Positions 27,718 to 57,452 of a stretch of 64,000 bases of DNA are shown piece after piece. Position 1 is the stretch's first letter. Each line of letters begins with the position of its first letter. This DNA is from Polyangium jinanense (lineage in GTDB: Bacteria > Myxococcota > Polyangia > Polyangiales > Polyangiaceae): positions 1-64,000 of the forward strand of contig NZ_JAGTJJ010000023.1 in assembly GCF_028435365.1 (NCBI RefSeq), in the 5' to 3' direction. The position numbers were made by a program, and so were the translations under genes. Under the pieces are notes generated by a model. That model made no database searches. It was not told the origin of the DNA and saw nothing but the letters and a program-made list of their open reading frames with translations.

Positions 27718-27725
27718 GGAGGGGC

Positions 27726-29454: not shown

Positions 29455-29559
29455 CTCCGCGTCCACGGATGACGCACGCGCGTACCTACGTTACGCGCGC
29501 CGAGCCTCGCTCGGGCCCCGCGTCCGAGCGAGGCTCGGGTGCACGCAGCTCTCGCGTGT
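29455..29559 (+). repeat. 105-bp direct repeat, left copy, with two hairpins
   Basis: The segment recurs at 31453-31557 and the two copies bracket the metalloprotease gene. Hairpin 1: CGCGCGTA (29477-29484) with TACGCGCG (29492-29499). Hairpin 2: 14 perfect base pairs, 29501-29514 with 29524-29537, loop GCCCCGCGT. No T-run follows. It lies just after the sigma-54 activator stop. Confidence 0.85.
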
Positions 29560-29639
29560 CGGCATGCGGGTTGCTTTGCGGCTATCCGCACCGCGAGCAA
29601 CGCGGCCCAACACAGTATCCCGCTGGAGCTTCGACACCC

Positions 29640-31430
29640 ATGAAACGTTATCATTCCATGGCGATTGCCATCGCGTCGGTCCTTGCCGTTTCCTACTCGT
29701 CGACCGGCTGCTCTGGCCCGGCCGAACCCTCCGCCGAGGAAAACGTTCAGACGGACGTGGCCCCGCTTTATGTAGCCTCGTCGAAGCTGTGGAGCGGAGA
29801 GTCCGTCCAGGTCTGCTGGGAAAACCCCAGCGCGGCGCCTCAAGCCGAGAGAGACTGGGTCAGACAAGCCGTCCTCGCGTCGTGGGACGCCCACACGCGG
29901 GTGGATTTCAATGGCTGGGGTACATGCACCAGCTCGTCGAATGGAATTCGCATCCGAATCTCCGATGAAGGCCCACACACAGATGGCCTCGGCACCGATC
30001 TCGACGGCGAAACGGATGGTATGGTATTGAACTTTACCTTCCAAAACTGGTCCCCGGACTGTCAGAACTCGCGCCGGTTCTGCATCGAAGCAATCGCGGT
30101 GCACGAGTTCGGGCACGCGCTCGGATTCGCTCACGAGCAGAATCGGCCCGACACCCCGTCGTGGTGCGATGAGGAGCAGGGGAGCGACGGTGACCTCACG
30201 CTAAACTTGTGGGATCTGGATTCGGTGATGAATTACTGCAATCCGGAATGGAACGGCAACGGCACGCTCAGCGAGAGCGACATCCAGGGCGCGATCCAGA
30301 TGTACGGCACTCCGCGATGGATAACGGAGTACGGCTATGTTCAGGGATGGCGTGTGGACAAGCACCCGCGTATGATGGCGGACGTCGACGAGGATGGAAA
30401 GCAGGATGTCGTCGCATTCGGCGATGCGGGGACGCTCGTGTCCAGGTCCACCGGGACCGGCTTCATGGCGCCGGAACTATGGGTGGACCAATATAATTAC
30501 AATCACGGCTGGCGCACCGAATATCACGAGCGGATGATGGCGGATGTCAACAACGATGGGAAGCCGGACGTGGTCGGCTTTGGGGACGCAGGCGTGCTGG
30601 TCTCGCTCTCGACGGGAAGCTCGTTTACGGCGCCGTCACTCTGGGTCGGCGATTATGGCTGGAATCAGGGCTACCGCGTGGACAAGCACCCGCGCATGAT
30701 GGCCGACGTCAACAACGATGGGAAGCCGGACGTCGTCGCTTTCGGGGACAATGGCGTGGTGGTCTCGCTCTCGACGGGAAGTTCGTTCACGGCGCCGTCG
30801 CTCTGGCTCGCCAATTACGGCTACAATCATGGCTATCGCATCGACCAGCACCCACGCATGATGGCCGACGTCAACAACGATGGGAAACAAGACGTCGTCG
30901 TCTTTGCCAACAACGGCGTGTACGTGGCGCTCTCGACGGGAAGCTCCTTCTCGACGCCATCGCTTTGGGTCGGGAATTATGGTTACAACCACGGCTACCG
31001 CGTGGACATGCATCCGCGGATGACGGCCGATGTCAACGGCGACGGGAAGCAGGACATCGTTGCCTTCGGTGACAACGGCGTGGTCGTGTCTACCTCGACG
31101 GGAAGCTCCTTCACGACGCCCCAGCTCTGGGTCAACAGATTCGGGTATAATCAAGTCGGATGGCGCGTGGAACAGCACCCGCGCATGATGGCGGATGTAG
31201 ACAATGACGGGAAAGATGACGTGGTCGGCTTTGGGGGCAACGGCGTTTATATCTCGCGCTCTACCGGGAGCTCGTTCGAGCTGCCGAGCCACCTGGTAGA
31301 AGGCTTCGGTTATGATTTCGGATGGCGCGTGGACATGCACCCGCGCATGATGGCGGATATCAATGGTGATGGAACGCAGGACGTGGTCGGCTTTGCAAAT
31401 GAAGGCGTCTTCGTCAGACAGACCTACTGA
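29640..31430 (+). CDS. Astacin-like zinc metalloprotease with FG-GAP repeats
   Basis: A 596-aa secreted enzyme; ATG 29640 gives a signal peptide ending in STGC, a likely lipobox. The protease part (about 40-225) has HEFGHALGFAHEQNRPD, the HExxHxxGxxHE zinc site of metzincins, and a Met-turn SVMNYC; the combination is closest to astacins. The rest is six complete and one truncated FG-GAP/VCBS-type repeats of 54 residues, each with a calcium-type loop DVNNDGKPDVV; together they should form a beta-propeller. Repeat DNA is nearly identical, unit 162 bp. Confidence 0.9.
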   Translation: MKRYHSMAIAIASVLAVSYSSTGCSGPAEPSAEENVQTDVAPLYVASSKLWSGESVQVCWENPSAAPQAERDWVRQAVLASWDAHTRVDFNGWGTCTSSSNGIRIRISDEGPHTDGLGTDLDGETDGMVLNFTFQNWSPDCQNSRRFCIEAIAVHEFGHALGFAHEQNRPDTPSWCDEEQGSDGDLTLNLWDLDSVMNYCNPEWNGNGTLSESDIQGAIQMYGTPRWITEYGYVQGWRVDKHPRMMADVDEDGKQDVVAFGDAGTLVSRSTGTGFMAPELWVDQYNYNHGWRTEYHERMMADVNNDGKPDVVGFGDAGVLVSLSTGSSFTAPSLWVGDYGWNQGYRVDKHPRMMADVNNDGKPDVVAFGDNGVVVSLSTGSSFTAPSLWLANYGYNHGYRIDQHPRMMADVNNDGKQDVVVFANNGVYVALSTGSSFSTPSLWVGNYGYNHGYRVDMHPRMTADVNGDGKQDIVAFGDNGVVVSTSTGSSFTTPQLWVNRFGYNQVGWRVEQHPRMMADVDNDGKDDVVGFGGNGVYISRSTGSSFELPSHLVEGFGYDFGWRVDMHPRMMADINGDGTQDVVGFANEGVFVRQTY

Positions 31431-31644: not shown

Positions 31645-32571
31645 TTGAACCCTGGAACCACGCTGCTTCGTTGTGCTTCGCCGTTCGTGTTCATCGCCAT
31701 GAGCCTCTATGGCCTGGGTTGCATGGCAGACCCCGAGGATCCGGGTTGGGATCCCGAGGGTGAGGTGCTCGGGGAGGCTCATCTCGGGTCAGGTGGCGAT
31801 CCGGGGACCACCAATCACTTGAGGTATCGGGTCACCCATAATCATGGCGTGCAGCGGACCGTTCGTGTGATCGGTAATGCCGCGCTGGCCCCTTCCGGCT
31901 TCCTGCCCAGCATGCCCGACATGCCATCGCCCAGCGCGGCGGGTGAGTGGGCAGGCGCCAGGGTCGAGTTTCTGGAGAAGCTCATCGGTTGCGCCTTGGC
32001 CGAGGGGACCACCGTGGGGGACACGGGACATATTGTCGGGTACATGACGAGTGGGGGGTTCTCCGTGCCCGTGTTCCAGCAGTACCATGGTGAGATCGGT
32101 CTTGCGCCGGACTGGAGCACGCGCGCGCTCACGACGGATGAAAAGAGGTGGGTCACGGCCTGCGTCGTGGCGCGCACCAACCGCTACGGCGCGACGATCA
32201 ACATCCTGCTCGGAGGCGCTCACCCGGAGATCACCTATCGAGCCAGCGAGGCCTACCCCTACACGGTGCCGGAGTCGACGGTGTGGGGCAATATGTTCGA
32301 TTCTACAATGCCGCTGGGTAGCAACACCGATAGCACTCCAGCGTTCAATGCGTACATCTGTAGCGACGTGACGTTCTGCAGCTCTGCCGAGGGGGCGACC
32401 CTCCGGGCATGTGACGCGACGTATACGCCCTGCGGCTTCAGCTACATGGGACTCTGCGACACCTTCGATGCCTTCTGCAGCGATCCGTTGCATTCGACGT
32501 TCGAGGGCTGCTCGAACCGCTCCTACGCGATTCACAGCTACTTGAAGGCGAGCGACGCGACTTGCCCTTGA
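31645..32571 (+). CDS. Lipoprotein of the FWGNLWG family (fourth member)
   Basis: A 308-aa putative lipoprotein starting at TTG 31645 with CAGGAGG 7 bases upstream; signal peptide ends SLYGLGC. It aligns with the three lipoproteins at 50650-53462 across the body: IGCALAEGT, HGEIGLAPDWST, RWVTACVVARTNRYGATINI, ESTVWGNMFD and a Cys pair region. It lacks the pentapeptide stalk of the other three. The C-terminal half is Cys-rich (ACDATYTPCGF and others). Function unknown. It is convergent with a kinase-TPR gene 43 bases away, as the other members also lie beside kinase genes. Confidence 0.8.
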   Translation: MNPGTTLLRCASPFVFIAMSLYGLGCMADPEDPGWDPEGEVLGEAHLGSGGDPGTTNHLRYRVTHNHGVQRTVRVIGNAALAPSGFLPSMPDMPSPSAAGEWAGARVEFLEKLIGCALAEGTTVGDTGHIVGYMTSGGFSVPVFQQYHGEIGLAPDWSTRALTTDEKRWVTACVVARTNRYGATINILLGGAHPEITYRASEAYPYTVPESTVWGNMFDSTMPLGSNTDSTPAFNAYICSDVTFCSSAEGATLRACDATYTPCGFSYMGLCDTFDAFCSDPLHSTFEGCSNRSYAIHSYLKASDATCP

Positions 32572-32613: not shown

Positions 32614-35600
32614 TCACTCCATTCCCTTGGCCTCCTGAATGTTCGCCTGATGCGCCGCCGCGAGCCGCGGGTTTTCCCGGATCGCTGCCACGAACGCCTC
32701 GCCCGCCGCGCGCGCGGCTTTCTTTCGATCCTCTCCGCGTGAGACCCTCGCCCGTACCAGGAGGAGCTCCCCCTTCGCCACGAACGCTTGCGCGCTGTGC
32801 GGGTGAATGGCGAGCGCCTTCTCTGCGAATTCGAGCCCCACGTCGACATCAGCGTTCGCGCTTTTCTCGTGCCCATCCAACCACGGGGCCTTTTTCGCGT
32901 GAATCTCGGCGAGCATCTGATAGGGCCGAGGGTCGTTGCGCTCCTTCGCGACGAGAGGTCGCAGGACGGCCGCCGCGGCATCGAATCCTTGCTCGCGCGC
33001 CTCGCCGCTCACCGCGCGCGCGCGGGCGGCGAAGAGGTGGAGCCTGGCCAGGATATGGTGAGAATCGATGTCCCACGTGTCCTCCTCGGCGACCTTCTCC
33101 ACGCGGTCCCGCACCGAAAGGAGCTCGGGGACGGGCAGGAGGCGGTTGGAGAGTGTGTGCTCGGCTTCGAGCAGCCGGAGCTCGGCGACCTCCATCAACA
33201 AGAAGCCCGTCTCCGTGCCTGGCGTCGCGAATGCATGGATCTTCTCCAGGCCTGCGGCGATCGAGGCGCGAGGATCCTTGCCGACCGAGAGCTCGTACGC
33301 AGCCCGAACCCGCAACGATTTGGCCGCGTAGTAGGCGGGTAGAAAGCCTCCGAGGCTCCGCTGTTCGACCAGGGCTACGGCGTTCGAGAGTGCATCCACG
33401 CTGCTCTGCGCTTCGAGCCCGTGCTCGGTCTCGTACACGAGCCTGTAGATGGCAGCGCGGATCTTGCCGAACATGGGCAAGGTGAAGCTCGGGTCCACTT
33501 CGATGGCTTGATCGAACCGCTGCGATGCGCTCCCGAGGAGCTGGCGAGGATCCTCGCCGTGGAGACGGTCGAACTCCGCTTTTATCAGATACGTTTGTCC
33601 GAGTTCGTTCAGCGCCCAGGTAAACCGAGGCTCGACGTCGAGGACGCGGTGGAACGCCGCTATCGCATCCTCGGCGGTCACGCGCTCGCCGCGCGCGGCC
33701 TGCCGCGCTGCCCGGACGTTCAATGTGGCAGCCAGCGCGTAAAGCGCCATCGCGTCCCGAGGGCGGACGCGTACGGCCTCTTCCACGGCCTGGAGGACGG
33801 CTTGCTGAGCCGCGTCCGCGTCATTCGCCTGGGCATTTTCCGTGAAAAATCGGTAATAAAGCGCGAGCGCACGTTCGACCCGCGCGGCGCCATCCAGGCT
33901 GCTTGATTGTACCGCCCGGGCGCAGGTGGCCTCCGCGTTACCGAACTCGATCTGCGCAGGTTTTCCCAGCGCTCCTGCCGCGAGCCCCATCTTCTCCCAA
34001 AGCTCACACTCCGCCCGATGCACCTCCGGATCACTCTCAGCCATCTCCGCCGCGACCTTGTACGCCTCGGCCGCCGGGCCAAACGACAGCATCATCTTGT
34101 CCCAATCGAACGCCGCGTCGTGCCGATACTTGCTCCCCTCCGCGAACAATGCATCCGCCTCGAGCTTCTTCGCCTCATACATCCATGGCGCCTGCTCGAA
34201 GGCCTCCCGCGCCTTCGCCCGCGCCTCCTCGTTTTTCCCCTCGTACAACGCGATGAGCCCCTCCACGTACGCCGGCGCCTCGATCTCCGCCCCCGACGCC
34301 GCCCTCAAATGACCGAGCGCCGGAGCTCGCAGCGCCGCCGCGAGCTCCGCCTCCCGCTTCTTGCGCTCCTCCGCGTTCGTGATCCGCTTCGTCTTCGCGA
34401 GCGCCCGCCGATAAAGCTCCCCGAGCGTCCGCCCCAGCGCGTATTCGAGCTCCGGCGATCGATACCCCGCGCCGACCGCCTTCTCCAGATGCTCCCGCGC
34501 CTTTTCCGGATCCCCCAGCGCGAGATATCCCCGCCCGAGCGCGTAATGCCCCGGGCCCTCGCCCACGCGCCCCGCCTCCTTCATCCGCTCCTCGATCGCC
34601 GAGAGCTTCCGCCGCACCACGTCCCGCTCGCGCTCCACGTCGTGCAGCGGCAGCTCGTAGGCCGCGCGCAAGAAGAGCTCCATCTCCTTCACCCGCTCGC
34701 CGAGCTCCTGCGCGATCCTCGCCTCGGCTGCCGCCTGCTGCCGTGCCTTCCACCACACGCCGGCGAGCGCCAGCGCCGCGACGAGGAGCACGCCGGAGAC
34801 CGCCGTCGCGAGCTTGTGTTTCCGCGCCTTCTTCCACAGCACGTACCCCACCGACGCCCGCCGCGCCAGAATCGGCTCTCCGTCCAAAAACCGCTGCAAA
34901 TCCTCGGCGAGCGCCCGCGCCGATTCGTATCGCCGCCCCGGATCTCGCTCCAGGCATTTCATCACGATCGTCTCGAGATCCGCCGGCACCCCTTTCTTCA
35001 CCTTCCCCAGCGCAGGCGCCTCCTCGAAGGCGACCATCATCAAAAGCTTCCACGTGTGTGGCGCGACGAACGGCGGCCGCTCCGCGACGACGTCGTAGAG
35101 CGTCGCGCCGAGCGAATATACGTCCGAGCGTCGATCCAGCGCTCGCACGTCGCCCTTTGCTTGTTCCGACGACATGAACGCCGGGGTCCCCAGCACCGCC
35201 CCCGTCACCGTCTCTCCTTTGTCCGCGACCTCCCGCGCCAGACCGAAATCCATCACGTAGGGCTTGATGTCCCCGTCCGCGCTCCTTTCGACCATGATGT
35301 TGCCGGGCTTGATGTCCCGGTGAATGAGCCCGAGCCGGTGCGCTTCGTGGACCGCGGCCGAGACCTCCCGCATCAGCTTCACGCGTTGTTCGAGCGATAG
35401 CTGTCCGGCCATTTTCGAGAGCGGTTCACCCTCGATGTATTGCATTGCGATGAAAGGCTCGCCGTCGGCCTCTCCGGCCTCGTAGATCCGGCAAACGTTC
35501 TCGTGCTGGACCTTCGCCTGCGACCGCGCCTCCTGGAGGAAACGCCGCCCGAGCTCCGGATCGCTGCCCTTGAGCAGCTTGAGCGCCACCGTGCGTCCGA

Positions 35601-35817
35601 GCCGCGGATCCCGGCCGCGATAGACGGTCCCCATCCCGCCTTCGCCGAGGAAATGAATGTCCTCGTACCGTTCCGCGAGGGACGGGGGCACGCTGCGACG
35701 CTCCGACCGGAGCTCCAAAGGAGGGCCGAGTTCCGTCTGCGCGAGCGCGGGATCGACCAGCACCGTGCTGCTCTCCACGTCGACGTCCACCTCGGGCGAC
35801 GCACGAACGACCCTCAT
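32614..35817 (-). CDS. Serine/threonine kinase with TPR-rich C-terminus
   Basis: A 1,067-aa kinase. The kinase domain (about 50-315) has GEGGMGTVYRG, ALKLLKG, HRDIKPGN and DFGLAR, all intact, and an activation loop with TPAFMSSEQ. A membrane helix near residue 340 (SGVLLVAALALAGVWW) follows. The remaining 700 residues are helical repeats resembling TPR, e.g. ALGRGYLALGDPEKAREHLE. Such proteins couple signal-binding repeats to kinase activity. The upstream 180 bases are shared divergently with the oxidoreductase gene. Confidence 0.9.
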   Translation of the reverse strand: MRVVRASPEVDVDVESSTVLVDPALAQTELGPPLELRSERRSVPPSLAERYEDIHFLGEGGMGTVYRGRDPRLGRTVALKLLKGSDPELGRRFLQEARSQAKVQHENVCRIYEAGEADGEPFIAMQYIEGEPLSKMAGQLSLEQRVKLMREVSAAVHEAHRLGLIHRDIKPGNIMVERSADGDIKPYVMDFGLAREVADKGETVTGAVLGTPAFMSSEQAKGDVRALDRRSDVYSLGATLYDVVAERPPFVAPHTWKLLMMVAFEEAPALGKVKKGVPADLETIVMKCLERDPGRRYESARALAEDLQRFLDGEPILARRASVGYVLWKKARKHKLATAVSGVLLVAALALAGVWWKARQQAAAEARIAQELGERVKEMELFLRAAYELPLHDVERERDVVRRKLSAIEERMKEAGRVGEGPGHYALGRGYLALGDPEKAREHLEKAVGAGYRSPELEYALGRTLGELYRRALAKTKRITNAEERKKREAELAAALRAPALGHLRAASGAEIEAPAYVEGLIALYEGKNEEARAKAREAFEQAPWMYEAKKLEADALFAEGSKYRHDAAFDWDKMMLSFGPAAEAYKVAAEMAESDPEVHRAECELWEKMGLAAGALGKPAQIEFGNAEATCARAVQSSSLDGAARVERALALYYRFFTENAQANDADAAQQAVLQAVEEAVRVRPRDAMALYALAATLNVRAARQAARGERVTAEDAIAAFHRVLDVEPRFTWALNELGQTYLIKAEFDRLHGEDPRQLLGSASQRFDQAIEVDPSFTLPMFGKIRAAIYRLVYETEHGLEAQSSVDALSNAVALVEQRSLGGFLPAYYAAKSLRVRAAYELSVGKDPRASIAAGLEKIHAFATPGTETGFLLMEVAELRLLEAEHTLSNRLLPVPELLSVRDRVEKVAEEDTWDIDSHHILARLHLFAARARAVSGEAREQGFDAAAAVLRPLVAKERNDPRPYQMLAEIHAKKAPWLDGHEKSANADVDVGLEFAEKALAIHPHSAQAFVAKGELLLVRARVSRGEDRKKAARAAGEAFVAAIRENPRLAAAHQANIQEAKGME

Positions 35818-46577: not shown

Positions 46578-49500
46578 ATGAGAGTCGGGCAGGTCCTCGC
46601 GCAGAGATTCCGCGTCGACGCCCAGGTCGGGGGCGGCGGCATGGGGCAGGTCTATCGCGCCTTCGATCTCTCCAGCGGCGAGATCGTGGCCGCGAAGATC
46701 CTGAACGACACGGCGCCCGAGACCGTGGCGCGGTTCGAGCGGGAAGGCCGGGCGCTCGCGCGGCTCTCGCACCCCGGCATCGTCCGCTACGTGGCGTACG
46801 ACGTGATGCCGGACGGGCAGCCATTCCTGGTGATGGAGTGGCTCGAAGGCGAGGATCTCGCGCAAAGGCTCGCGCGCACGCACCTCACGGTCCCCGAGAC
46901 GATCACGCTCGCGACGCGCGTGGCCGAGGCGCTCGGCGCCGCGCACGCGCAGGGCATCGTCCACCGTGACCTCAAGCCCGGCAATGTCTTTCTCGTTGGA
47001 GGTCGAAGCGAGTCGCCGAAGATCCTCGATTTCGGCATCGCGTTTTTCGGCGGCAGCGCCCGCATCACCGCGACCGGCACGATGATGGGCACGCCGAGCT
47101 ACATCGCGCCCGAGCAGGCGCGCAGCGGCGGCGTGGTCGACGCCTCGGCCGACGTGTTTTCCCTCGGATGCCTGCTCTTCGAGTGCCTCTCGGGCCGGCC
47201 TCCTTTCCAGGGCGATCACTTCGTCGCGGTGCTCGCGAAGGTCATCTTCGAGGAGGCGCCGCGGCTCCACGAGCTCGGCGTCGTCGTGCCCCCGTGGCTC
47301 GACGAGCTCGTCGCGCGCATGCTCTCGAAGGAGCCCACGCGGCGGCCGCGCGACGGCGCCACGCTCGCCCGCGCCCTCGAAGCCGAGACGATCGACGACG
47401 ACGGCCTCGACGACGTGCCGCCGCGCTCGCTCGGCAAGCGTGAGCGGCGCTTCCTCGGCGTCGTGCTGCTCGGCCCGCCCGCGTCCGCGCCGCCCATCAC
47501 CTCGACCTCGAAGACGCTCGCGGTCTCCACGCCCGACACGATGCGCTCGGTGGTCACGCGGTTCGGCGCGCACCTCGAGCTCCTCGCCGACGGCACGGCC
47601 GTCGTGATCCTGGACCACACGAGCGTGCCGACGGACATCGCCGCGCAGGTCGCCCGGTGCGCGCTCGCGCTGCGCGAGTTTTTTCCGGGGGTGCCCATCG
47701 CTGTGACCACCGGGTGGTGCGAGCTCGGTCGCGGCCTGCCGGTCGGCGAGGCGATCGAACGGGCGATCTGGCTCCTGCACATGGAGGGACCCGTCCCCGG
47801 GCCACGCGTCGCGATCGACGAGACCACGGCGGGCCTGCTCGACAGCCGCTTCGACTTCGTCGAGCTCGCGCCCGGCGGCTGCGAACTGCGCGGCGAGCGC
47901 GTCTCGGCCGAGGCCTTCCGCCCGCTGCTCGGCAAGCTCACGCCATGCGTGGGGCGCGAGCACGAGCTTGCCCTGCTCGAACAGAGCTTCACGAACGCCG
48001 AGAACGAACCTGCGGCGCTCGCCGTGGTGGTCACGGGATCTGCCGGCATCGGCAAATCGCGCCTCGTGCACGAGTTCATCGAGCGTCGCAAGCGCGCGGC
48101 CGCGCCCGTCGAGATCCTGTGGGGCCGCGGGGATCTGCAGCGGGCCGGCTCCACGTTTGGCCTGCTCGCCGACGTGCTCTGGCGTGCGGCCGAGGTGAAG
48201 GGCGGCGAGCCGATCGAGGTGCGGCGCGAGCGCCTCGCCGCGTTCGTCGCGCGGCACGTCCCCGAGCGCGACCTGCGCCGCGTGACCGAGTTCCTCGGCG
48301 AGCTCTCGGGCATCCCGTTCCCCGACGAGGACAGCCTCCCGCTCCGCGCCGCGCGCCAGGACCCCGAGCTCTGCGGCGAGCAGATACGACGCGCATTTCG
48401 TGATTTCCTACGCGCTCTTTGCGCCGAGCGTCCCGCGCTCATCGTCGTCGAGGACGTGCACTGGGGCGATCGCGCCTCCGTCTCGGCGCTCGAAGCGGCG
48501 CTGCGCGAGCTCGCGGACGAACCCATCTTTCTCGTCGCGACCGCGCGTCCCGAGGTCGAGCAAGTGTTTCCGCAGCTCTGGGTCGAGTGTGGCCGCCAGG
48601 AGATCCGGCTGAAGCACCTCTCCGTGAAGGCGAGCGCCCGGCTCGCGCGCAAGGTGCTCGGCGACGCGGCGGAAACGCCTCTCATCGAGCGGCTCGTGAC
48701 CCTTTCCGAGGGGCATCCGTTTTTCCTGGAAGAGCTCGTCCGGGCCGCATCCGAGGATTCGCTCGGCGAATCCTTGCCGGAGACGATCGTGGCCATGGTG
48801 CAGACGCGCCTCGAGCGGCTCGAACCGCGCGCGCGTCGGGCTTTGCGCGCGGCGAGCATCCTCGGCGAGGTCTTCTGGCGTGGCGCCGTCGTGCACATGG
48901 TCGGCGAGGGCGATCCGAGCAGCGATCCGCTCGCCGCGCTCGTCGCCGGCGAGATTTGCTCGAAGCATCGGGAGAGCCGTTTTCCCAAGGACGAGGAGTA
49001 CGCCTTCCGCCACGCGCTCCTCCGCGAGGGCGCGTATGCGCTCCTCACGGACGACGATCGGGAGCTCGGCCATAGGCTCGCCGGCGAATGGCTCGAACGG
49101 GCGGGCGAGACCGATCCATTGATCCTCGCGAACCACTTCGAGCGCGGCGGCCGGCTCGATCGGGCGGGCACGATGTACATCCGCGGCGCGGAACAAGCGA
49201 GCGCGCGGCGCAATTACCCGGACGCGGAGCGTTACTTCGCGCGCGCCGACGAGCTGCTCTCCGGTTTGCCCGCGGTCGCGCGGCGCGCGCGTGGCCTCGC
49301 GCGGTTTCGGCGGGGCCAGTACGAGGACGCCGTTACCGAGCTTGCGGCCGCGCGGGCCCAGGCCGAGGCGGCGGGAGATGTCCTCTTGCAGGTCGAGCTC
49401 TTGCTCGACGAGTCCATCGTCTTCGACTGGATGGGCGACGTGAAGCGCGCCGAGGAGCTCGTCCTCGACGCGAAGGCGCGGTATGTCGAGGGCACCTCGC

Positions 49501-50396
49501 CGCTCGTCGACGCGCGCCTCCTGCTCGGGCTCGGGCGCTCCTCGCACCGCGCCGACCGCAACGAAGAGGCGGCGCGGGACCTCCTCGCCGCGGCGGAGAG
49601 GGCGGCGGAGCTCGGGGAGGAGGGCTACGAGACGCGGACGATCGCGCTCCTCTTGCTCGGGTTCATCTTGCCGGGCCTCGGGCGCTCCGACGAGGGGGCT
49701 GCCGTTCTCGACGAGGTCATTCATGGCTGCGAGGTCCGCGCCGACCTCCTTCACCTTGGCGGCGCGCTCGCCAACCGGGGCCTCGTCCGGGCTTGCCGCG
49801 GCGATCGGGCCGGGCTCATCGCCGATTACGAGCAAACCATTGCCATCGGCCGCGAGATCGGCCAGCCCACGCTGGAGCTCATCGGGCATTACAATCTGGG
49901 TGAATATCTTTACCTGATGGACGACCTCCCCGCGGCCGAGCCATACATCCGCTCCGCCGCGGCCTCGTTTCCGCGGCCGAACATCGGGGCGCACCCTGCG
50001 ATCGTCAAGTTGCTCGAAGCCCGGGTTCACCTTTATCGCGGCGACGAGGCTTCTGCGGCGGCGATCATAGCGGCCATTCGCAAGGAGCAGGTGGAAGCGC
50101 GGGCACAGGGGACCGAGATTTTGGCGCCCTCCGAGGAGGTCCTCTGCGCCATGGTCGAGCTTGCCACGACCGACGCGTCGGCGGAGCGCTGGGACGAGCT
50201 CGAAGAGCGCTCGACGCGGTGCTCGGTGGGACAGGAGCGGCTCGAGGTCCTCGAAGCGCGGGCGCTCACGGCGCTCCGCCGGGGCCGGCGCGACGACGCT
50301 GCGCGGCACCTCGAGGCCGCGCTCGACGTGGCCTCGCGGGTTGCGAACGTCATGACGCCGCGGCTCCGGCGTGCGCTCGTCGCGGCGAAGGGTTGA
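46578..50396 (+). CDS. Kinase / pseudo-cyclase / AAA ATPase / TPR signalling protein (1)
   Basis: A 1,272-aa protein. Kinase domain (1-270): GGGGMGQVYRAF, HRDLKPGN (128), DFGIAF, TPSYIAPEQ. Next, 290-455 resembles a class III nucleotide cyclase domain but lacks the metal-binding residues. Then an AAA ATPase with Walker A GSAGIGKS (486) and Walker B VVEDVHWGD (622), and C-terminal TPRs (860-1250). The architecture is like proteins often annotated PknK or TOMM-system kinase/cyclase fusion. Its paralog lies at 53613, with three lipoprotein genes between. The gap to the first lipoprotein is 250 bases. Confidence 0.88.
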   Translation: MRVGQVLAQRFRVDAQVGGGGMGQVYRAFDLSSGEIVAAKILNDTAPETVARFEREGRALARLSHPGIVRYVAYDVMPDGQPFLVMEWLEGEDLAQRLARTHLTVPETITLATRVAEALGAAHAQGIVHRDLKPGNVFLVGGRSESPKILDFGIAFFGGSARITATGTMMGTPSYIAPEQARSGGVVDASADVFSLGCLLFECLSGRPPFQGDHFVAVLAKVIFEEAPRLHELGVVVPPWLDELVARMLSKEPTRRPRDGATLARALEAETIDDDGLDDVPPRSLGKRERRFLGVVLLGPPASAPPITSTSKTLAVSTPDTMRSVVTRFGAHLELLADGTAVVILDHTSVPTDIAAQVARCALALREFFPGVPIAVTTGWCELGRGLPVGEAIERAIWLLHMEGPVPGPRVAIDETTAGLLDSRFDFVELAPGGCELRGERVSAEAFRPLLGKLTPCVGREHELALLEQSFTNAENEPAALAVVVTGSAGIGKSRLVHEFIERRKRAAAPVEILWGRGDLQRAGSTFGLLADVLWRAAEVKGGEPIEVRRERLAAFVARHVPERDLRRVTEFLGELSGIPFPDEDSLPLRAARQDPELCGEQIRRAFRDFLRALCAERPALIVVEDVHWGDRASVSALEAALRELADEPIFLVATARPEVEQVFPQLWVECGRQEIRLKHLSVKASARLARKVLGDAAETPLIERLVTLSEGHPFFLEELVRAASEDSLGESLPETIVAMVQTRLERLEPRARRALRAASILGEVFWRGAVVHMVGEGDPSSDPLAALVAGEICSKHRESRFPKDEEYAFRHALLREGAYALLTDDDRELGHRLAGEWLERAGETDPLILANHFERGGRLDRAGTMYIRGAEQASARRNYPDAERYFARADELLSGLPAVARRARGLARFRRGQYEDAVTELAAARAQAEAAGDVLLQVELLLDESIVFDWMGDVKRAEELVLDAKARYVEGTSPLVDARLLLGLGRSSHRADRNEEAARDLLAAAERAAELGEEGYETRTIALLLLGFILPGLGRSDEGAAVLDEVIHGCEVRADLLHLGGALANRGLVRACRGDRAGLIADYEQTIAIGREIGQPTLELIGHYNLGEYLYLMDDLPAAEPYIRSAAASFPRPNIGAHPAIVKLLEARVHLYRGDEASAAAIIAAIRKEQVEARAQGTEILAPSEEVLCAMVELATTDASAERWDELEERSTRCSVGQERLEVLEARALTALRRGRRDDAARHLEAALDVASRVANVMTPRLRRALVAAKG

Positions 50397-50649
50397 GGGC
50401 GAGCACCCTTTCGTTTCGTAAGGGCCGCATCAGGTTTTTACTGTATGCAATGCGTCGCGATCGTGCGCCGACGCACCCTTCTTATTTGGCGTCGCGTGGC
50501 ACTTGCGCATGTTGAGCAATTTCGGCGCAGTGGTTTCGCCATTTTTGTGCTTGCTTCGTTCTTGGAATGCATCTAGACATAATGGAATGTCCGGAAACTC
50601 TGCGACATTCGGCTCCGTTGGTTTCTTGCTGCAGGAGCGGAGGTCAATC

Positions 50650-51486
50650 ATGCGTGTTCTCGGTCGAGGGGCTCAGCTCGTGGTTTTGGCGGCGGCTCTT
50701 GGAGGGTGCACCGCGGAGGTGGGGCCGGAGGAGGATGCGGTCGGGGTTGCGGAGGGCGAGATCGTCAAGACCAATGCGCTCAACGTGAATGCGCTCAACG
50801 TGAACGCGCTCAATGTGAACGCGCTCAACGTGAACGCGCTCAACGTGAACGCGCTCGATCCGGATTCGCTCTCGGCGATCCGGAATCCTGGGGCGAACGG
50901 CGACCTCGCCCGCGAGTTCGTCAAGTACGCCGTGAGCTGCGCGCTCAATGCGGGCCAGACGTTCGAGTTCTCCTGGACCGACGCGCAGGGCGTCGAGCAC
51001 CCCGAGGTTTACGTGGGTGCGCTCGGGCTCTCACCGGACTGGCACACGGGCCCGCTCGACCTGACGGGCCAGCGCATGGTGAGCGCTTGCCTCGCGGGGC
51101 TCACGAATTACTACGGCACGCACGTCACCATCTCGATGCGCGCGCCCGAGGTGCCTTTGAAGGTCATCGACCCGGCCGAGCTCACGAACTACCCGAACAT
51201 CGAGGGCGCGTTCTGGGGCAACCTCTGGGGCGATACGTCCTATGTCCACGCCTGTTACAACGCCGATACGATCGCGAACTCCCGCGCCCATTCTCGCGAC
51301 TGCGCCGCGGGCCACCTGAACCCCGACAACTCCATCGACGAGTGCGGCCTCATCGATATCGTGGGTCCGTGCAGCGAGGTCTGCGAGCCGGTGAACGGTG
51401 AGACGGGCGCGTACCCCTCGTGCATCGTGCACCCGGGGCAGGATCCCACCATGACCGAGCACATCATCACGACCGCGCTGCCCTGA
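50650..51486 (+). CDS. FWGNLWG-family lipoprotein 1 with NALNV pentapeptide stalk
   Basis: A 278-aa putative lipoprotein. ATG 50650 follows GGAGCGGAGGT; lipobox AALGGC. After an acidic stretch come five NALNV and one NALDP pentapeptide. The body follows: RNPGANGDLAREFVKYAV, SCALNAGQTFEFSW, LGLSPDWHTGPLDLTGQRMV, EGAFWGNLWGDT, ACYNADTIANSRAHSRDCA, and GLIDIVGPCSEVC. Eight or so Cys suggest disulfides outside the cytoplasm. No known domain is recognised. It is the first of three tandem paralogs between the two big kinases; the long in-frame leader from 50503 is not needed. Confidence 0.85.
   Translation: MRVLGRGAQLVVLAAALGGCTAEVGPEEDAVGVAEGEIVKTNALNVNALNVNALNVNALNVNALNVNALDPDSLSAIRNPGANGDLAREFVKYAVSCALNAGQTFEFSWTDAQGVEHPEVYVGALGLSPDWHTGPLDLTGQRMVSACLAGLTNYYGTHVTISMRAPEVPLKVIDPAELTNYPNIEGAFWGNLWGDTSYVHACYNADTIANSRAHSRDCAAGHLNPDNSIDECGLIDIVGPCSEVCEPVNGETGAYPSCIVHPGQDPTMTEHIITTALP
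50773..50862 (+). repeat. 15-bp coding repeat, six units (NALNV pentapeptides)
   Basis: Five units code NALNV (50773-50847) and one codes NALDP (50848-50862). Units differ only by AAT/AAC swaps. It is the only one of the three paralogs whose pentads are DNA-identical, which suggests recent homogenisation. Confidence 0.9.
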
Positions 51487-51666
51487 ACGGGCCCTTTCCC
51501 ACCGGCACCGTCCCGTACACCCCCCCTCCATCGCGCGCGACCGGCCCGATGCTCGCGCCGCGCAACGCGTTGTGCCCTCCGATCATCCAAGCACGAACCC
51601 GTCGGCGATCCGTCCGGCACTCGAAGCGGTCGTCCACGGGGTTCGAATCCGTACAAGGGAGGGCTT

Positions 51667-52494
51667 ATGCAAGTTTGGTTCAGGACGATAGGGCTCCTGG
51701 TTTGCTTATCGGGTTGTGCAGGGGTCGGCGAGATCTCCGAGGACGTACTCGAGGCCGAGGGCGTGCTGGTGCAGGGTAACAAACTGGCCGCGAACTCGCT
51801 CGCGTTGAACTCGCTGGCGCTGAACGGAATTGCCCTGAATGGGATCGGGCTGAATTCGATGGATCCGACGTCGCTTTCGGCCATCCAGGACGCGGGCGTG
51901 AAGGGCGCGCGTGCGCGCGCGTTCCTTCGTTACGCGATCGGCTGCGCCTTCGCGCCCTCGCAGAGCTTCGCGTTCACCTGGTGGGACGCGGCGCGCGTCG
52001 CTCACGAAGAGACGTACCACGGGGAGCTGGGCGTCGCCCCCGGCTGGTCCACGGGGCCCCTCGACCTCCAGGGGCAACGCATGGTGAGCGCCTGCGTGGC
52101 TGCGCGGGTCAACTATTACGAGGTGCCGGTGCTCATATCGATCCGATCGACGCAGCCGCCCCTCGAGGTCCCCGGGGACAAGGAGCTCGACCATTTCCCG
52201 GACGTCGAGGGCGCGTTCTGGGGCAACCTCTGGGGCACCGCGCCCGCCATCTACGCTTGCTACAACAGCGAGACCGTCGCGAACTCCCGCGGGTGGAGCC
52301 GCGACTGCGCCGCAGGGCATTTGCGCGACGACGGCACGATCGAGGAGTGCGGCATGATCGACATCGTCGGCCCCTGTAGCGCCGTGTGCGGACCTTTGAT
52401 CAGCGGCGGTCGATACTACCGATTATGCGGCGACAAACCTGACGGGAAAGGCAAATCGAAAACGAACCTCGTCGTGACGACCGCGCTGCCCTGA
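51667..52494 (+). CDS. FWGNLWG-family lipoprotein 2 with pentapeptide stalk
   Basis: A 275-aa putative lipoprotein, ATG 51667 with AAGGGAGGG upstream; lipobox LVCLSGC. Its six pentads are NKLAA, NSLAL, NSLAL, NGIAL, NGIGL and NSMDP. The body is clearly paralogous to lipoprotein 1 (YAIGCAFAPSQSFAFTW, WSTGPLDLQGQRMVSACV, VEGAFWGNLWGT, NSRGWSRDCAAGHL, MIDIVGPCSAVC). It ends in VVTTALP, as the first does. It follows 180 bases after lipoprotein 1. Confidence 0.85.
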   Translation: MQVWFRTIGLLVCLSGCAGVGEISEDVLEAEGVLVQGNKLAANSLALNSLALNGIALNGIGLNSMDPTSLSAIQDAGVKGARARAFLRYAIGCAFAPSQSFAFTWWDAARVAHEETYHGELGVAPGWSTGPLDLQGQRMVSACVAARVNYYEVPVLISIRSTQPPLEVPGDKELDHFPDVEGAFWGNLWGTAPAIYACYNSETVANSRGWSRDCAAGHLRDDGTIEECGMIDIVGPCSAVCGPLISGGRYYRLCGDKPDGKGKSKTNLVVTTALP

Positions 52495-52631
52495 TCGCCG
52501 CTCCGACCCGGACACCTTTCCGCGCAGCGTGCGACCGAGCCGCGCAACGCATTCCAGCCAGAGATCATCGAAGCCCGATACCCCCCGCGGACGAACCGCC
52601 CCGGGGAGAATGCCGTTCCTTGGAGGTGGAC

Positions 52632-53462
52632 ATGCGAGCTTGGTCGCCGTTGATGATGCTCTTCGCGTTGACCCCCGGTTGTACCGCTTACATCGACGAG
52701 ACTTCTGATGACGTCATGGAGGCGGAGGTCGCGCTGGTGCAGGGAAACCACCTGTCTTCGAACGCGCTCGCGCTCAATTCGCTCGCGCTGAACGGGATCG
52801 CCCTGAACGGGATCGCGCTGAATACCCTCGACCCGAAGGCCCTCACGGCGATAGAGGACCCGGGGTCCAATGGCACGCTTGCCCGTCGTTTTCTCAAATA
52901 TGCGGTCGGCTGCGCCTTCACCACCTCGCAGAGTTTTTCCTTCTCCTGGACCGACGCGTCGAACGTGGTCCACGACGAGACGTATTGGGGCGAGCTCGGC
53001 GTCGCGCCCGGCTGGGCCACGGGGCCGCTCAACACACAGGGGCAGTACATGGTGAGCGCCTGCCTGGCGGCCCGCGTCAATTATTACGAGGTGCCCGTCG
53101 TCATTTCGATCCGATCACTCACCGAGCCCTTGAAGACGCTCAGCGGCAGCTCGGAGCTCGCCGCGTATCCGGACGTCGAAGGCGCGTTCTGGGGCAACCT
53201 GTGGGCGCCCACGCCGTTCCTTCACGCCTGCTACAACAGCAATACGGTGACGAACTCCCGATCCTGGAAACGCGATTGCGCCGTGGGGCACCTCGTCGCC
53301 GGCGGAGGTGTCGAGGAGTGCGGGATGATCGACATCGTCGGTCCCTGCTCCACGGCGTGTCAGACCTTGAACGGCGCGGGTCAGTATTATCCGTCCTGCA
53401 CCGAAAGGCCCGGCCAGAGCTCGACGACCACGAAGTTCGTACTTACCACTGGATTGCCCTGA
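52632..53462 (+). CDS. FWGNLWG-family lipoprotein 3 with pentapeptide stalk
   Basis: A 276-aa putative lipoprotein. ATG 52632 is preceded by TTGGAGGTGG; the ORF track-type extension adds only MEVD. The lipobox is LTPGC. Pentads: NHLSS, NALAL, NSLAL, NGIAL, NGIAL, NTLDP. The body is closest to lipoprotein 2 (HDETYWGELGVAPGWATGPL, RVNYYEVPVVISIRS, VEGAFWGNLWAPT). Its 3' end is 150 bases before the second large kinase gene. Confidence 0.85.
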   Translation: MRAWSPLMMLFALTPGCTAYIDETSDDVMEAEVALVQGNHLSSNALALNSLALNGIALNGIALNTLDPKALTAIEDPGSNGTLARRFLKYAVGCAFTTSQSFSFSWTDASNVVHDETYWGELGVAPGWATGPLNTQGQYMVSACLAARVNYYEVPVVISIRSLTEPLKTLSGSSELAAYPDVEGAFWGNLWAPTPFLHACYNSNTVTNSRSWKRDCAVGHLVAGGGVEECGMIDIVGPCSTACQTLNGAGQYYPSCTERPGQSSTTTKFVLTTGLP

Positions 53463-53612
53463 TACCACCCCGAAAGTGCAGTCTCTCTTTCCACGCCTTC
53501 CTCCGTTCCAGGCGGGCTCCACACCATTACATTCGACCCGGTCGGATATCGATTGTCGTTTCCTTCCCGATGGCCCCTGGACGCGGGAAATCCTAGGGTT
53601 ACGCTTCCCCTT

Positions 53613-56600
53613 GTGCGGCCGGGAGAAGTGCTCGGTGGGCGCTTCCGCGTCGAGGCGCGTGTCAATGCAGGGGGGATGGGCGAAATCTTTCGCGCCATAG
53701 ACCTCGTGACCGGTCACGTCGTCGCCGCGAAGATCCTCGTCGCCGTTTCTCCCGAGAGCCTTTCGCGCTTCCGTCGCGAGGCGCAGATCCTGGAGCGCCT
53801 CTCGCATCCCGGCATCGTCCGCTACGTCGCCTACGACACGTCCTCGGCGTCGAGCCCGCTGCTCGTGATGGAATGGCTCGAAGGCGAGGACCTCGGGCGC
53901 AGGCTCGCCCGCGGGCCGCTGTCGCTCCGCGAGACCCTCACGCTCGGCCAGCGCCTCGCCGAGGCCCTCTCCGTCGCGCACGACGCCGGCGTCGTGCACC
54001 GCGATCTCAAGCCGCAAAACGTCTTCCTCGTCAACGGTGCCGTCTCCGAGCCGCGGATCCTCGACTTCGGCATCGCGCATTGTGGTGAAGCTTCGCGCAT
54101 CACGCAGACCGGCACCGTCATCGGCACGCCGAGCTACATGGCGCCCGAGCAGGTCCGCAGCGGCAGCATCGTCAAGGCGAGCGCCGACGTCTTCTCGCTC
54201 GGATGCCTGATGTTCGAGTGCATCACCGGCGCGCCGCCCTTCCGCGCCGATCACACGATCGCCGTCCTTGCGAAGATCATCTTCGAGGACGCGCCCCGCC
54301 TCGCCGAGCGCGCGCCCGCTGTGCCCTCGTGGCTCGATGGCCTCGTCGCCCGGATGCTCGCCAAAGACCCGCTCGGGAGGCCACAAGACGGCGCGGCCGT
54401 GGCGTTCGCGCTCGCCGCCGAGAAGGACCTCGAGCCCCCGAGCTCGGAGGCCCCACGCTCCTCCGCGCCTCGATCGACGCTCGGGGAGGGCGAGCGGAGG
54501 TTCCTCGGCGTCGTGCTCCGCGGCCGCCGTGATACCGCGCTCGGCCCGTTCGGCCCGGCGACCACGCTCGCCTGCAACTCGCCCACGGACGACCTCGGCG
54601 CGATCGCCGAACGCTTCGGCGGGCACCTCGAGGTCTTCGCGGACGGCACCGCGGCCGTGGTGATCGATCGGACGCGCGTGCCCACCGACGTCGCGGCCCA
54701 CGTCGCTCGCTGCGCGCTCGCGCTCTGGGAGCGCGCGCCCGGGGCCGCCATGGCCGTCGCCGCGGGCTTTGGCGAGCGCGCGCGGGGCGTGCCCGTCGGC
54801 GAGGCCATCGACCGCGCCGCGCGCCTCCTCCACGCGCGGAGCGGCGAGGCCCGTATCGCCCTCGACGAGACCACGGCGGGCCTGCTCGACGCGCGCTTCG
54901 ACGTCGAGGCCCAAAAGCGCGGCGGCTTCGCGCTCCTCGGCGAGCGCGCGAGCTTCGAGGTCTCGCGGCCCCTGCTCGGCAAGGCCACGCCTTGCGTCGG
55001 CCGCGAGCACGAGCTCGGCCTCTTCGACCTCACCTTCGCCGCCTGCAAAAGCGAGCCGGCCGCGCGTGTCGTCGTCGTCTCCGGCCCCGCGGGCATTGGC
55101 AAATCGCGCCTGCTCCACGAGTTCGTCGAGCGCCAGCGGGCCGCCGTCGAGCCCGCCGAGATCTGGTTCGGCCGCGGCGATCCCTTGCGCGTCGCTTCGA
55201 GCTTCGGCCTGCTCGCCGAGGTCCTGCGCGGCGCCTCGGGCATTCGCGGCGGCGAGCCCCTCGCGCGCCGCCGCGAGTTGCTTTCCGCCCGCGTCGCGCG
55301 CCGCGTCCCCGAGCGTGATCGCCGCCGCGTCGCGAGCTTCCTCGGCGAGCTCGCGGGCGTGCCTTTTCCGGACGACGAGGACTTGCCGCTCCGCGCCGCG
55401 CGGCAGGACCCCGAGCTTTGCGGCGAGCAAATGCAGCGCGCCCTCCGCGATTTTCTGCGCGCGGAATGCGGGGACAAACCCTTGGTCCTCCTCCTCGAAG
55501 ACGTGCAATGGGGCGACCGCGCCTCGCTGCTCGCGCTCGACGCCGCGCTCGAGGGCCTCGCGTTCGAGCCGATCTTCCTCCTCGCCTCGGCGCGCCCCGA
55601 GATTGACGAGCTCTTTCCCGGCCTCTGGTCGAGCCGCGGCCGGCAGGACGTGCGCCTCCGGCAGCTCTCGCCGCGGGCGTGCGTGCGCCTCGTTCGCCAC
55701 GCGCTCGGCGAGCTTCGCTCTGGGCTCGAAGAGCGCCTCGTCGCGTCCTCCGAGGGGCATCCGTTTTTCCTGGAAGAGCTCATTCGCGCCGAGGCCGAGG
55801 GGCGCGGCGGCACCCCGCCCGGGACGGTCGTGGCCATGGTGCAATCACGCCTCGAACGATTGGAGCCGCGCGCGCGCCGCACCTTGCGCGCCGCGAGCAT
55901 TCTCGGCGAGGTCTTCTGGCGTGGCGCGGTCGCGCGCCTCGCGGGCGAGGACGACGAATCCGTCGCGCGTGACCTCGCGGCCCTCGTCTCGCACGAGATC
56001 GTCACGCGCCAGCGCGAGAGCCGCATTCCTGGCGAACCCCAATATGCGTTCCGACAGGCGCTCTGGCGCGAGGGCGCATATGCGATGCTCACGGACGAAG
56101 ATCGCACGCTCGGCCATCACCTCGCGGCCGAATGGCTGGAGGAGAAGGGCGAAGCCGACGCGCTCGTCCTGGCGGAACATTTCGAGCGCGGCGGCGCCTC
56201 GGCGCGGGCGGCCTCGTTTTACCTGGCCTCGGCCGAGCAATCGGCGGCCCGCAAGGATTACCTCGACGCCGAGCGATGTTATGGCAAGGCCGAGGCGCTC
56301 TGGGGCGAGCTCCCAACGCGCGCGCAGCGCGGCCGTGGCCTCTCGCGTTTTCGCCTCGGCCGCTTTCACGATGCGCTCACCGAGCTTGCGCGGGCGCGCG
56401 AGGGCGCGGCGCGGCGCGGGGAGGCGTCGCTCATCGTGGAGCTTTACCTCGACGAGGCCATGGTGCTCGACTGGATGGGCGAATATCGCGAAGCCGAGCG
56501 CCGCGTGCTCGCCGCGCGTATCGAGGAGCAGGCCCTCCCTTCGCGCTCGCCGCTCCTCGAAGCGCGCCTTTTGCTCGGCGTCGGCCGCTCGGCATTGCGT

Positions 56601-57452
56601 GCCGAGCGCGAGGAGGAGGCCGCGGACGAGCTTTCGCGCGCGGCCGAGCTCGCGAGCCGCCTCGGCGACGAGGGATACGAGACCTACGTGATCGCGCATC
56701 TGCTCCTCACCTACCTTCTGCCCTTGCTCGGCCGGGTCGACGAGGCCGCGGCATTGCTCGACGAGGTCATTCGCCGCTGCGAGGAGCGCGGCGACCTTTT
56801 GCACCTCGGCGCCGCGTGGAACACGCGCGCCATGGTCCGGGGCATTCGTGGCGATCGCGAGGGCATGATCCGGGACTTCGAGCGCACGAGTGAGCTCGGC
56901 CGCGAGCTCGGCCAGCCGACGATGGAGCTTGCGGGTCATTACAACCTGGCCGAGCACCTGTACTGGATGGACGACGTCGAGGCCGCCGAGCCCATGATTC
57001 GCGCGGCGCTGGCCGTCGCGGCGCGGCGTGCCGGCTGCGTGCGTCCGGCCATGCTCGCCCTGCTCGACGCGCGTATTGCCCTCGCCCGCGGCGATGCGCG
57101 GACGGCGCGGGCCATTGCCTCTGCATTGCGCGGGGGCGCGGCCGAGATGTCGCCCTCGGAGGACGTGCTTTGCACGATGATCGAGCTCGCGACGGGGGAC
57201 GACGGGGGCTCCCTTTCCGACATCGAATCGGCGTGGGAGGCGCTCGAAGCCCGTTCGGCGCGCGCGAGCGTGGGGCAGGAGCACATCGAGGTGCTGGAGG
57301 CGCGGGCGCTGCATGCATCTCGCCTCGGCCAGCGGGAGCGGGCGATGCGTCAGCTCGAGAAAGCCATTGCAGCGGCGTCGCGGATTCCGAATGTGATGAG
57401 CGAGCGTCTGCGGCGGAGGCGGGACGAGCTTGCGTGCCTGGGCGCGGCTTGA
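53613..57452 (+). CDS. Kinase / pseudo-cyclase / AAA ATPase / TPR signalling protein (2)
   Basis: A paralog of the protein at 46578, 1,279 aa from GTG 53613 (MRPGEVLGGRFRV, matching MRVGQVLAQRFRV of the first); an extended frame from 53553 is possible. Kinase residues intact (GGMGEIFRAI, HRDLKPQN, DFGIAH, TPSYMAPEQ). The cyclase-like domain (about 290-455) lacks catalytic residues here too. ATPase: Walker A GPAGIGKS (489) and LLEDVQWGD (628). TPRs follow. Its last 60 bases are duplicated at 58833. Confidence 0.88.
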   Translation: MRPGEVLGGRFRVEARVNAGGMGEIFRAIDLVTGHVVAAKILVAVSPESLSRFRREAQILERLSHPGIVRYVAYDTSSASSPLLVMEWLEGEDLGRRLARGPLSLRETLTLGQRLAEALSVAHDAGVVHRDLKPQNVFLVNGAVSEPRILDFGIAHCGEASRITQTGTVIGTPSYMAPEQVRSGSIVKASADVFSLGCLMFECITGAPPFRADHTIAVLAKIIFEDAPRLAERAPAVPSWLDGLVARMLAKDPLGRPQDGAAVAFALAAEKDLEPPSSEAPRSSAPRSTLGEGERRFLGVVLRGRRDTALGPFGPATTLACNSPTDDLGAIAERFGGHLEVFADGTAAVVIDRTRVPTDVAAHVARCALALWERAPGAAMAVAAGFGERARGVPVGEAIDRAARLLHARSGEARIALDETTAGLLDARFDVEAQKRGGFALLGERASFEVSRPLLGKATPCVGREHELGLFDLTFAACKSEPAARVVVVSGPAGIGKSRLLHEFVERQRAAVEPAEIWFGRGDPLRVASSFGLLAEVLRGASGIRGGEPLARRRELLSARVARRVPERDRRRVASFLGELAGVPFPDDEDLPLRAARQDPELCGEQMQRALRDFLRAECGDKPLVLLLEDVQWGDRASLLALDAALEGLAFEPIFLLASARPEIDELFPGLWSSRGRQDVRLRQLSPRACVRLVRHALGELRSGLEERLVASSEGHPFFLEELIRAEAEGRGGTPPGTVVAMVQSRLERLEPRARRTLRAASILGEVFWRGAVARLAGEDDESVARDLAALVSHEIVTRQRESRIPGEPQYAFRQALWREGAYAMLTDEDRTLGHHLAAEWLEEKGEADALVLAEHFERGGASARAASFYLASAEQSAARKDYLDAERCYGKAEALWGELPTRAQRGRGLSRFRLGRFHDALTELARAREGAARRGEASLIVELYLDEAMVLDWMGEYREAERRVLAARIEEQALPSRSPLLEARLLLGVGRSALRAEREEEAADELSRAAELASRLGDEGYETYVIAHLLLTYLLPLLGRVDEAAALLDEVIRRCEERGDLLHLGAAWNTRAMVRGIRGDREGMIRDFERTSELGRELGQPTMELAGHYNLAEHLYWMDDVEAAEPMIRAALAVAARRAGCVRPAMLALLDARIALARGDARTARAIASALRGGAAEMSPSEDVLCTMIELATGDDGGSLSDIESAWEALEARSARASVGQEHIEVLEARALHASRLGQRERAMRQLEKAIAAASRIPNVMSERLRRRRDELACLGAA

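Follow-up and report, generated by a model that had tools for sequence, protein, structure and literature searches.

A predicted lipoprotein family whose genes recur beside Ser/Thr kinase genes in Polyangia

In the genome of Polyangium jinanense, a run of five genes encodes two large serine/threonine (Ser/Thr) kinases and, between them, three related predicted lipoproteins. The run lies at positions 46578-57452 of a 64,000-nucleotide stretch (contig NZ_JAGTJJ010000023.1, positions 1 to 64,000, forward strand), referred to here as the window. We report that the lipoproteins belong to a family whose genes recur next to kinase genes across the class Polyangia, and we weigh what this pairing may mean. 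The cluster was picked out in an earlier sequence-only reading of the window. Its five genes are co-directional on the + strand and fill the interval in the order kinase A, lipoproteins 1 to 3, and kinase B, with these features:

46578..50396, + strand: kinase A, with a Ser/Thr kinase domain (aa 12-258), a weakly cyclase-like region (nt 47424-47945), an AAA_16 ATPase (aa 457-653) and a TPR-like C terminus
50576..50591, + strand: inverted repeat GACATAATGGAATGTC, 16 bases, in the leader of lipoprotein 1, which is conserved in Polyangium
50650..51486, + strand: lipoprotein 1 (family profile E = 7e-117); the open reading frame (ORF) opens at TTG 50503
50776..50856, + strand: 15-bp tandem repeat encoding the Asn-pentad (ALNVN) repeats of lipoprotein 1
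51667..52494, + strand: lipoprotein 2 (family profile E = 3e-115)
52632..53462, + strand: lipoprotein 3 (family profile E = 6e-129); the ORF opens at 52620
52815..53459, + strand: Cys-rich core domain of lipoprotein 3, with a confident structure prediction
53553..57452, + strand: kinase B, paralogue of kinase A; ORF start 53553, probable start GTG 53613

Reckoned from the likely starts, the intergenic spacings are 253, 180, 137 and 150 bp, and ORF inspection of 46578-57452 found no further gene that fits between the members. Lipoproteins 1 to 3 share 50, 51 and 62% pairwise identity, bearing out the description of three tandem lipoproteins of one family on the same strand. Lipoprotein 1 likely starts at ATG 50650 and not at TTG 50503; the ATG is conserved and preceded by GGAG. 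Scans of the cluster for sigma-70 promoters and for terminators were uninformative.

Kinases A and B are 60% identical, and Pfam finds Pkinase and AAA_16 in both, in agreement with the common domain order claimed for the flanking proteins. HRD, DFG, Walker A and Walker B motifs are present in each. Two other labels in the sequence-only reading fared less well. TPR matches stay under the curated Pfam cutoff, leaving a TPR-like tail, and no Pfam family matches the degenerate cyclase-like insert between kinase and ATPase. When a 29-row profile of this insert was compared with PDB, adenylate cyclase chains appeared at E = 0.066 and 0.37, behind a disulphide isomerase (E = 0.01) that is probably a chance match; any resemblance to class III cyclases thus appears weak. 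The best NCBIfam match of both kinases is TIGR03903, a kinase/cyclase fusion of thiazole/oxazole-modified microcin (TOMM) systems, with two matched stretches each and scores of 264.5 (A) and 252.0 (B) bits, below the cutoff of 705.75. That family is known from the neighborhood of TOMM biosynthesis genes, none of which was found among the 27 window proteins, covering part of the window, scanned with Pfam. In STAND regulators of the PknK and MalT kind, a nucleotide-binding switch is followed by a TPR-like sensor region, and in PknK the kinase is N-terminal. The kinases here have the same switch and TPR-like order and differ in their cyclase-like insert and lipoprotein gene partner.

The lipoproteins share a distinctive anatomy: a lipobox cysteine, an acidic tether, short Asn-pentad repeats (N-x-[L/I]-x-x, median 6) and a separate Cys-rich core into which the repeats lead. 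Because of these features, family members are predicted to be exported lipoproteins and should be lipid anchored outside the cytoplasm. The lipobox cysteine is present in 37/37 diverse members and in 102/104 of a larger aligned set; a crude lipobox rule applied to raw ORFs caught 60 of 113 members, partly because ORFs open upstream of the true start. In lipoprotein 1 the pentads are encoded by a near-perfect tandem repeat (95% matches, 5.4 copies of 15 bp), which is a likely site of length change. The repeats have the same five-residue period as Pentapeptide and GLTT repeats and differ in forming a short leader to a Cys-rich core; PF00805 matched 1/104 members (E = 0.022) and GLTT matched 5/104.

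A search with lipoprotein 3 returned 206 homologues at E ≤ 0.001. None of the four lipoproteins of this family in the window (the fourth is described below) matches Pfam, NCBIfam or PHROG, and the family profile matches no PDB sequence. AlphaFold modeled the core of lipoprotein 3 confidently (predicted local distance difference test score [pLDDT] 95.2, predicted template modeling score [pTM] 0.90), and the model has no convincing structural match. Ricin-type lectin domains occur in 2 of 10 longer members scanned, fused to the family domain (L188:922-2172 and L184:131-1981).

A single-sequence query found members in 8 of 39 relatives. With the family profile (E ≤ 1e-5), members were found in at least 60 of 289 Polyangia genomes and, in a wider sample of the phylum, in at least 9 of 282 genomes, 4 of these outside the class; the best 8 candidates per genome were scored, and the per-genome numbers, and possibly the genome numbers, are minimum values. 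Polyangium, Sorangium, Minicystis and Chondromyces are among the named hosts, and by protein identity the closest relatives of the window are Polyangium.

The sequence-only reading had proposed asking whether family genes neighbor kinase genes more often than chance. We compared the window, 25 loci, 60 regions hand-picked from match lists, and 20 background regions (round coordinates in four genomes), calling family members (E < 1e-5) and kinases (E < 1e-15) with a profile for each. This sample holds 113 family genes from 35 genomes, including one from a background region. A kinase ORF lies within 500 bp of 81 of the 113 and within 1.5 kb of 96, and pairs occur in 31 of the 35 genomes. By contrast, a kinase lies within 500 bp of 9/280 non-kinase background genes and 16/424 genes more than 5 kb away in family loci (3-4%); for other lipobox genes in the two control sets the counts are 2/27 and 0/43 (Fisher p < 1e-45 for adjacency, with related genes counted as independent). 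The family is therefore not randomly placed relative to kinases. After related members were collapsed, 45/62 clusters at 60% identity, 17/27 at 50% and 11/19 at 45% remained paired. For So0157-2, reported to have 508 kinases in 11,599 genes (PMC3696898), random gene order would place a kinase beside about 8.6% of genes; 6 of 8 family members examined are paired, out of at least 10 family matches in the profile survey. A kinase ORF is also present in 7 of 16 short stretches chosen later around members that are longer or distant; these stretches, two of which overlap loci already counted, are kept out of the 81/113 counts. Together, these results establish a recurrent pairing of a predicted exported lipoprotein with a kinase, kept across a bacterial class.

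The window itself holds a second instance, the fourth family member that the sequence-only reading had placed, correctly, beside a further kinase-TPR gene:

31645..32571, + strand: fourth, distant lipoprotein-family member (30% identity over 116 aa; family profile E = 2e-41)
32614..35817, - strand: its kinase partner, with a kinase domain, a hydrophobic segment near residue 336 and then TPR matches; no AAA part

The two genes are arranged tail-to-tail, 42 bp apart. Upstream of the fourth lipoprotein, 29469-31430 encodes a protein with matrixin/astacin-like metalloprotease matches and FG-GAP repeats; further up, a short Ser/Thr kinase ORF (26560-27717) runs into the beginning of an ORF for a sigma-54 activator (27642-29444). 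A Lon protease gene lies upstream of the five-gene cluster on the opposite strand.

Most pairs are co-directional (72/81, median gap 92 bp); in 42 of these the kinase gene follows the lipoprotein gene, and in 30 it precedes it. The HRD/HGD-x-K-xx-N motif is present in 74/81 partner kinases and DFG in 68/81, and some partners, in contrast to A and B, have TPR matches above the Pfam cutoff. By profiles, 23/81 are kinase only; of these, 10 have a hydrophobic segment (≥2.1) immediately behind the kinase domain (333-351), and 3 have one at the C terminus. The other 58 are of the large AAA/TPR type and lack a strong hydrophobic segment (19-residue mean ≤ 1.99), hydropathy alone being a crude test of membrane segments. 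As a side observation, a short, divergently transcribed second kinase adjoins many lipoprotein and kinase-AAA-TPR pairs, giving a three-gene module (L058:8068-9693; similarly L056, L059-L064, L115, L121 and L122), and four genomes have a protein of about 215 aa close to the pair (L140, L142, L143 and L144). The usual unit elsewhere joins a single lipoprotein to a single kinase, and the presence of a kinase on each side of our cluster looks like a local duplication.

Lipoprotein and kinase-domain trees agree over 73 pairs (r = 0.466; 8/81 dropped for short cores or domains), above anything reached by free shuffles (maximum 0.159, 0/2000) or within-genome shuffles (maximum 0.305, 0/5000). This agreement means that loci are inherited as units and is not by itself evidence of function. 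It would thus suit a linkage without function, in which kinase genes multiply by duplication and carry a neighbor along, as would the tandem copies at the cluster and the sheer number of kinases (228 and 235 strict motifs in two genomes, besides the 508 of So0157-2). We consider this explanation unlikely, since the pairing spans several kinase architectures with the kinase on either side, survives collapse at 50 and 45% identity and is not matched by the control genes, and since purifying selection acts on both partners in Polyangium.

The last point rests on the six other Polyangium genomes examined, all of which keep the five-gene order; the cluster therefore has homologues in related genomes. 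Ratios of nonsynonymous to synonymous differences (pN/pS) against the window are 0.21-0.29 for kinase A, 0.15-0.24 for kinase B, 0.37-0.60 for lipoprotein 1 (which takes in some leader upstream of the likely start), 0.42-0.50 for lipoprotein 2 and 0.27-0.52 for lipoprotein 3. The kinases and lipoproteins of the cluster are thus under purifying selection, the lipoproteins being less constrained. Divergence from the counterparts at the same position is greater for lipoprotein 2 than for its neighbors (64-68% identity; synonymous divergence [dS] 0.57-0.71 in six genomes), possibly through replacement or conversion among the tandem copies.

Such synteny also bears on whether the pair could be a conflict or defense module, in which the kinase would control a lipoprotein toxin that is either delivered or aimed at the cell itself. 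Several paralogues per genome, tandem arrays and PADLOC models that match the kinase domains would fit, and the SitA lipoprotein toxins of outer membrane exchange likewise come as several lipoprotein paralogues in a myxobacterium. However, the PADLOC matches fall on the generic kinase domain, and lipoprotein 3, the only one of the lipoproteins put through that scan, gave no match; no phage or defense family matched the lipoproteins scanned. The cluster is syntenic and conserved in Polyangium and not hypervariable, and no immunity-like gene recurs beside the pairs. By published description, as distinct from sequence comparison, the present family also differs from SitA: it is partnered by a kinase, with no immunity gene seen. 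We regard this module as very improbable.

The kinase could instead govern the making or display of its neighbor; the lipoprotein would then act at the surface as an effector, for example an adhesin or a lectin-like protein that binds prey, kin or substrate. The 58 soluble partners suit a cytoplasmic regulator, the lipoproteins evolve faster than the kinases, and the lectin domains of two longer members would fit such a role. In addition, lipoprotein 1 is preceded by a conserved leader of its own, which contains an inverted repeat confined to the cluster: a 21-base site containing the repeat occurs once per genome in six Polyangium and not at all in two other genomes (≤3 mismatches allowed), with the G002 copy carrying 3 mismatches and a broken repeat. 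We had considered this repeat as a shared operator and rejected it, as it occurs at this cluster alone in the genomes searched; two other leader pieces have a single or near-chance occurrence within the window. The kinases lack a DNA-binding part, however, no transcription factor family was found recurring beside the pairs, and membrane kinases, whose TPR part should lie outside, suggest contact on that side of the membrane. Output of this kind is possible, and we rank it as nearly as likely as the input reading, to which we now turn.

We tentatively propose a co-inherited kinase-lipoprotein signaling pair, in which the lipoprotein is probably an outward-facing sensor that tunes its own kinase; we put its probability at roughly 0.42. 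The Cys-rich core would bind an extracytoplasmic ligand and thereby tune the activity of the cognate kinase. With a membrane-spanning partner, the lipoprotein could directly contact the TPR part predicted to lie outside; a soluble STAND-type partner would require a membrane relay, with its TPR part receiving the signal on the inside. We favor the lipoprotein as input because the kinase is the common factor over soluble and membrane partners, because membrane partners should have their TPR part on the lipoprotein side, and because, in GlnH-GlnX-PknG, a soluble kinase-TPR protein has a lipoprotein as its sensor (PMC6069109). The envelope sensing guessed at in the sequence-only reading is plausible; its other guess, export control, gained no support, as no export-gene family recurs beside the pairs (crude gene calls).

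In GlnH-GlnX-PknG of Actinobacteria, the gene of a lipoprotein is reported to be conserved together with that of a soluble Ser/Thr kinase with a C-terminal TPR domain, and this domain to couple signal detection to phosphorylation (PMC6069109, PMC8546545, PMC9769921). The soluble kinase with a TPR part is matched by the 58 partners of the large AAA/TPR type. The systems differ in that the kinases here mostly have an AAA/STAND part and that GlnH is a solute-binding protein, a Pfam family absent from the 4 window members and the 104 aligned members. A kinase-lipoprotein pair of the present content was not described in the open full-text literature searched (subscription papers lie mostly outside it), consistent with the earlier statement that no such system was known; PMC2887360 treats kinase-phosphatase gene pairs, and the word "lipoprotein" is absent from its main text. 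The logic of the pair therefore has a precedent, and the lipoprotein family itself is undescribed.

Several observations weigh against the sensor proposal. For the 58 of 81 partners without a strong membrane segment, direct cross-membrane contact is excluded, and the missing relay is the main weakness of the input reading. No conserved third gene emerged when neighbors within 7 kb were clustered (crude gene calls): groups reach at most 8 of 35 genomes, the largest being 15 genes in 8 genomes and 10 genes in 7 genomes, the second of which may be an antisense reading of kinase genes. Nor did a GlnX-like membrane relay gene recur near the pairs in the 35 genomes, with the same gene calls and neighbors not classed by membrane segments. 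Some partners lack HRDxKxxN (7/81, one a fragment) or DFG (13/81); these may be inactive or may have been overlooked by the pattern (possible pseudokinases without HRDxKxxN: L061:4252-8259, L061:12461-16462, L063, L064, L101 and L129). Tree agreement is weak inside single genomes (r = 0.15-0.48, 3 of 6 genomes below 0.05). For 17 of the 113 members, no kinase lies within 1.5 kb. Four of these are explained by a contig end (L050, L057, L137 and L047, the last beside a cut-off cyclase-like/AAA/TPR gene), and about 13 look like true orphans. In the reverse direction, 20 of 20 other kinase-AAA loci (two genomes, taken from unpaired matches) lack the lipoprotein family, so that a kinase neighbor can be predicted from the lipoprotein but not the lipoprotein from a kinase. 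Some kinase-AAA genes that lack the family lie beside other lipobox genes (L215:7610-9268 and L225:7248-8855).

A wider possibility, less likely than not, is that Polyangia run many parallel channels of one lipoprotein and one kinase. These would form a large undescribed signaling class in which an extracytoplasmic domain of unrecognized fold gives input specificity and the signal is relayed to soluble STAND-type kinases by an undescribed route.

Sorangium and its relatives encode Ser/Thr kinases by the hundred, with 317 reported for So ce56 and 353 for M. rosea (PMC8436480), and the stimuli that activate bacterial kinases have been called an outstanding question (PMC6069109). The lipoproteins lie one by one beside a subset of these kinases and give them named candidate inputs or outputs, and the core domain, which has no recognized structural relative, is a target for structure solution. 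The pair thus suggests a way to ask what some of the very numerous kinases of Polyangia, a class of soil bacteria, respond to.

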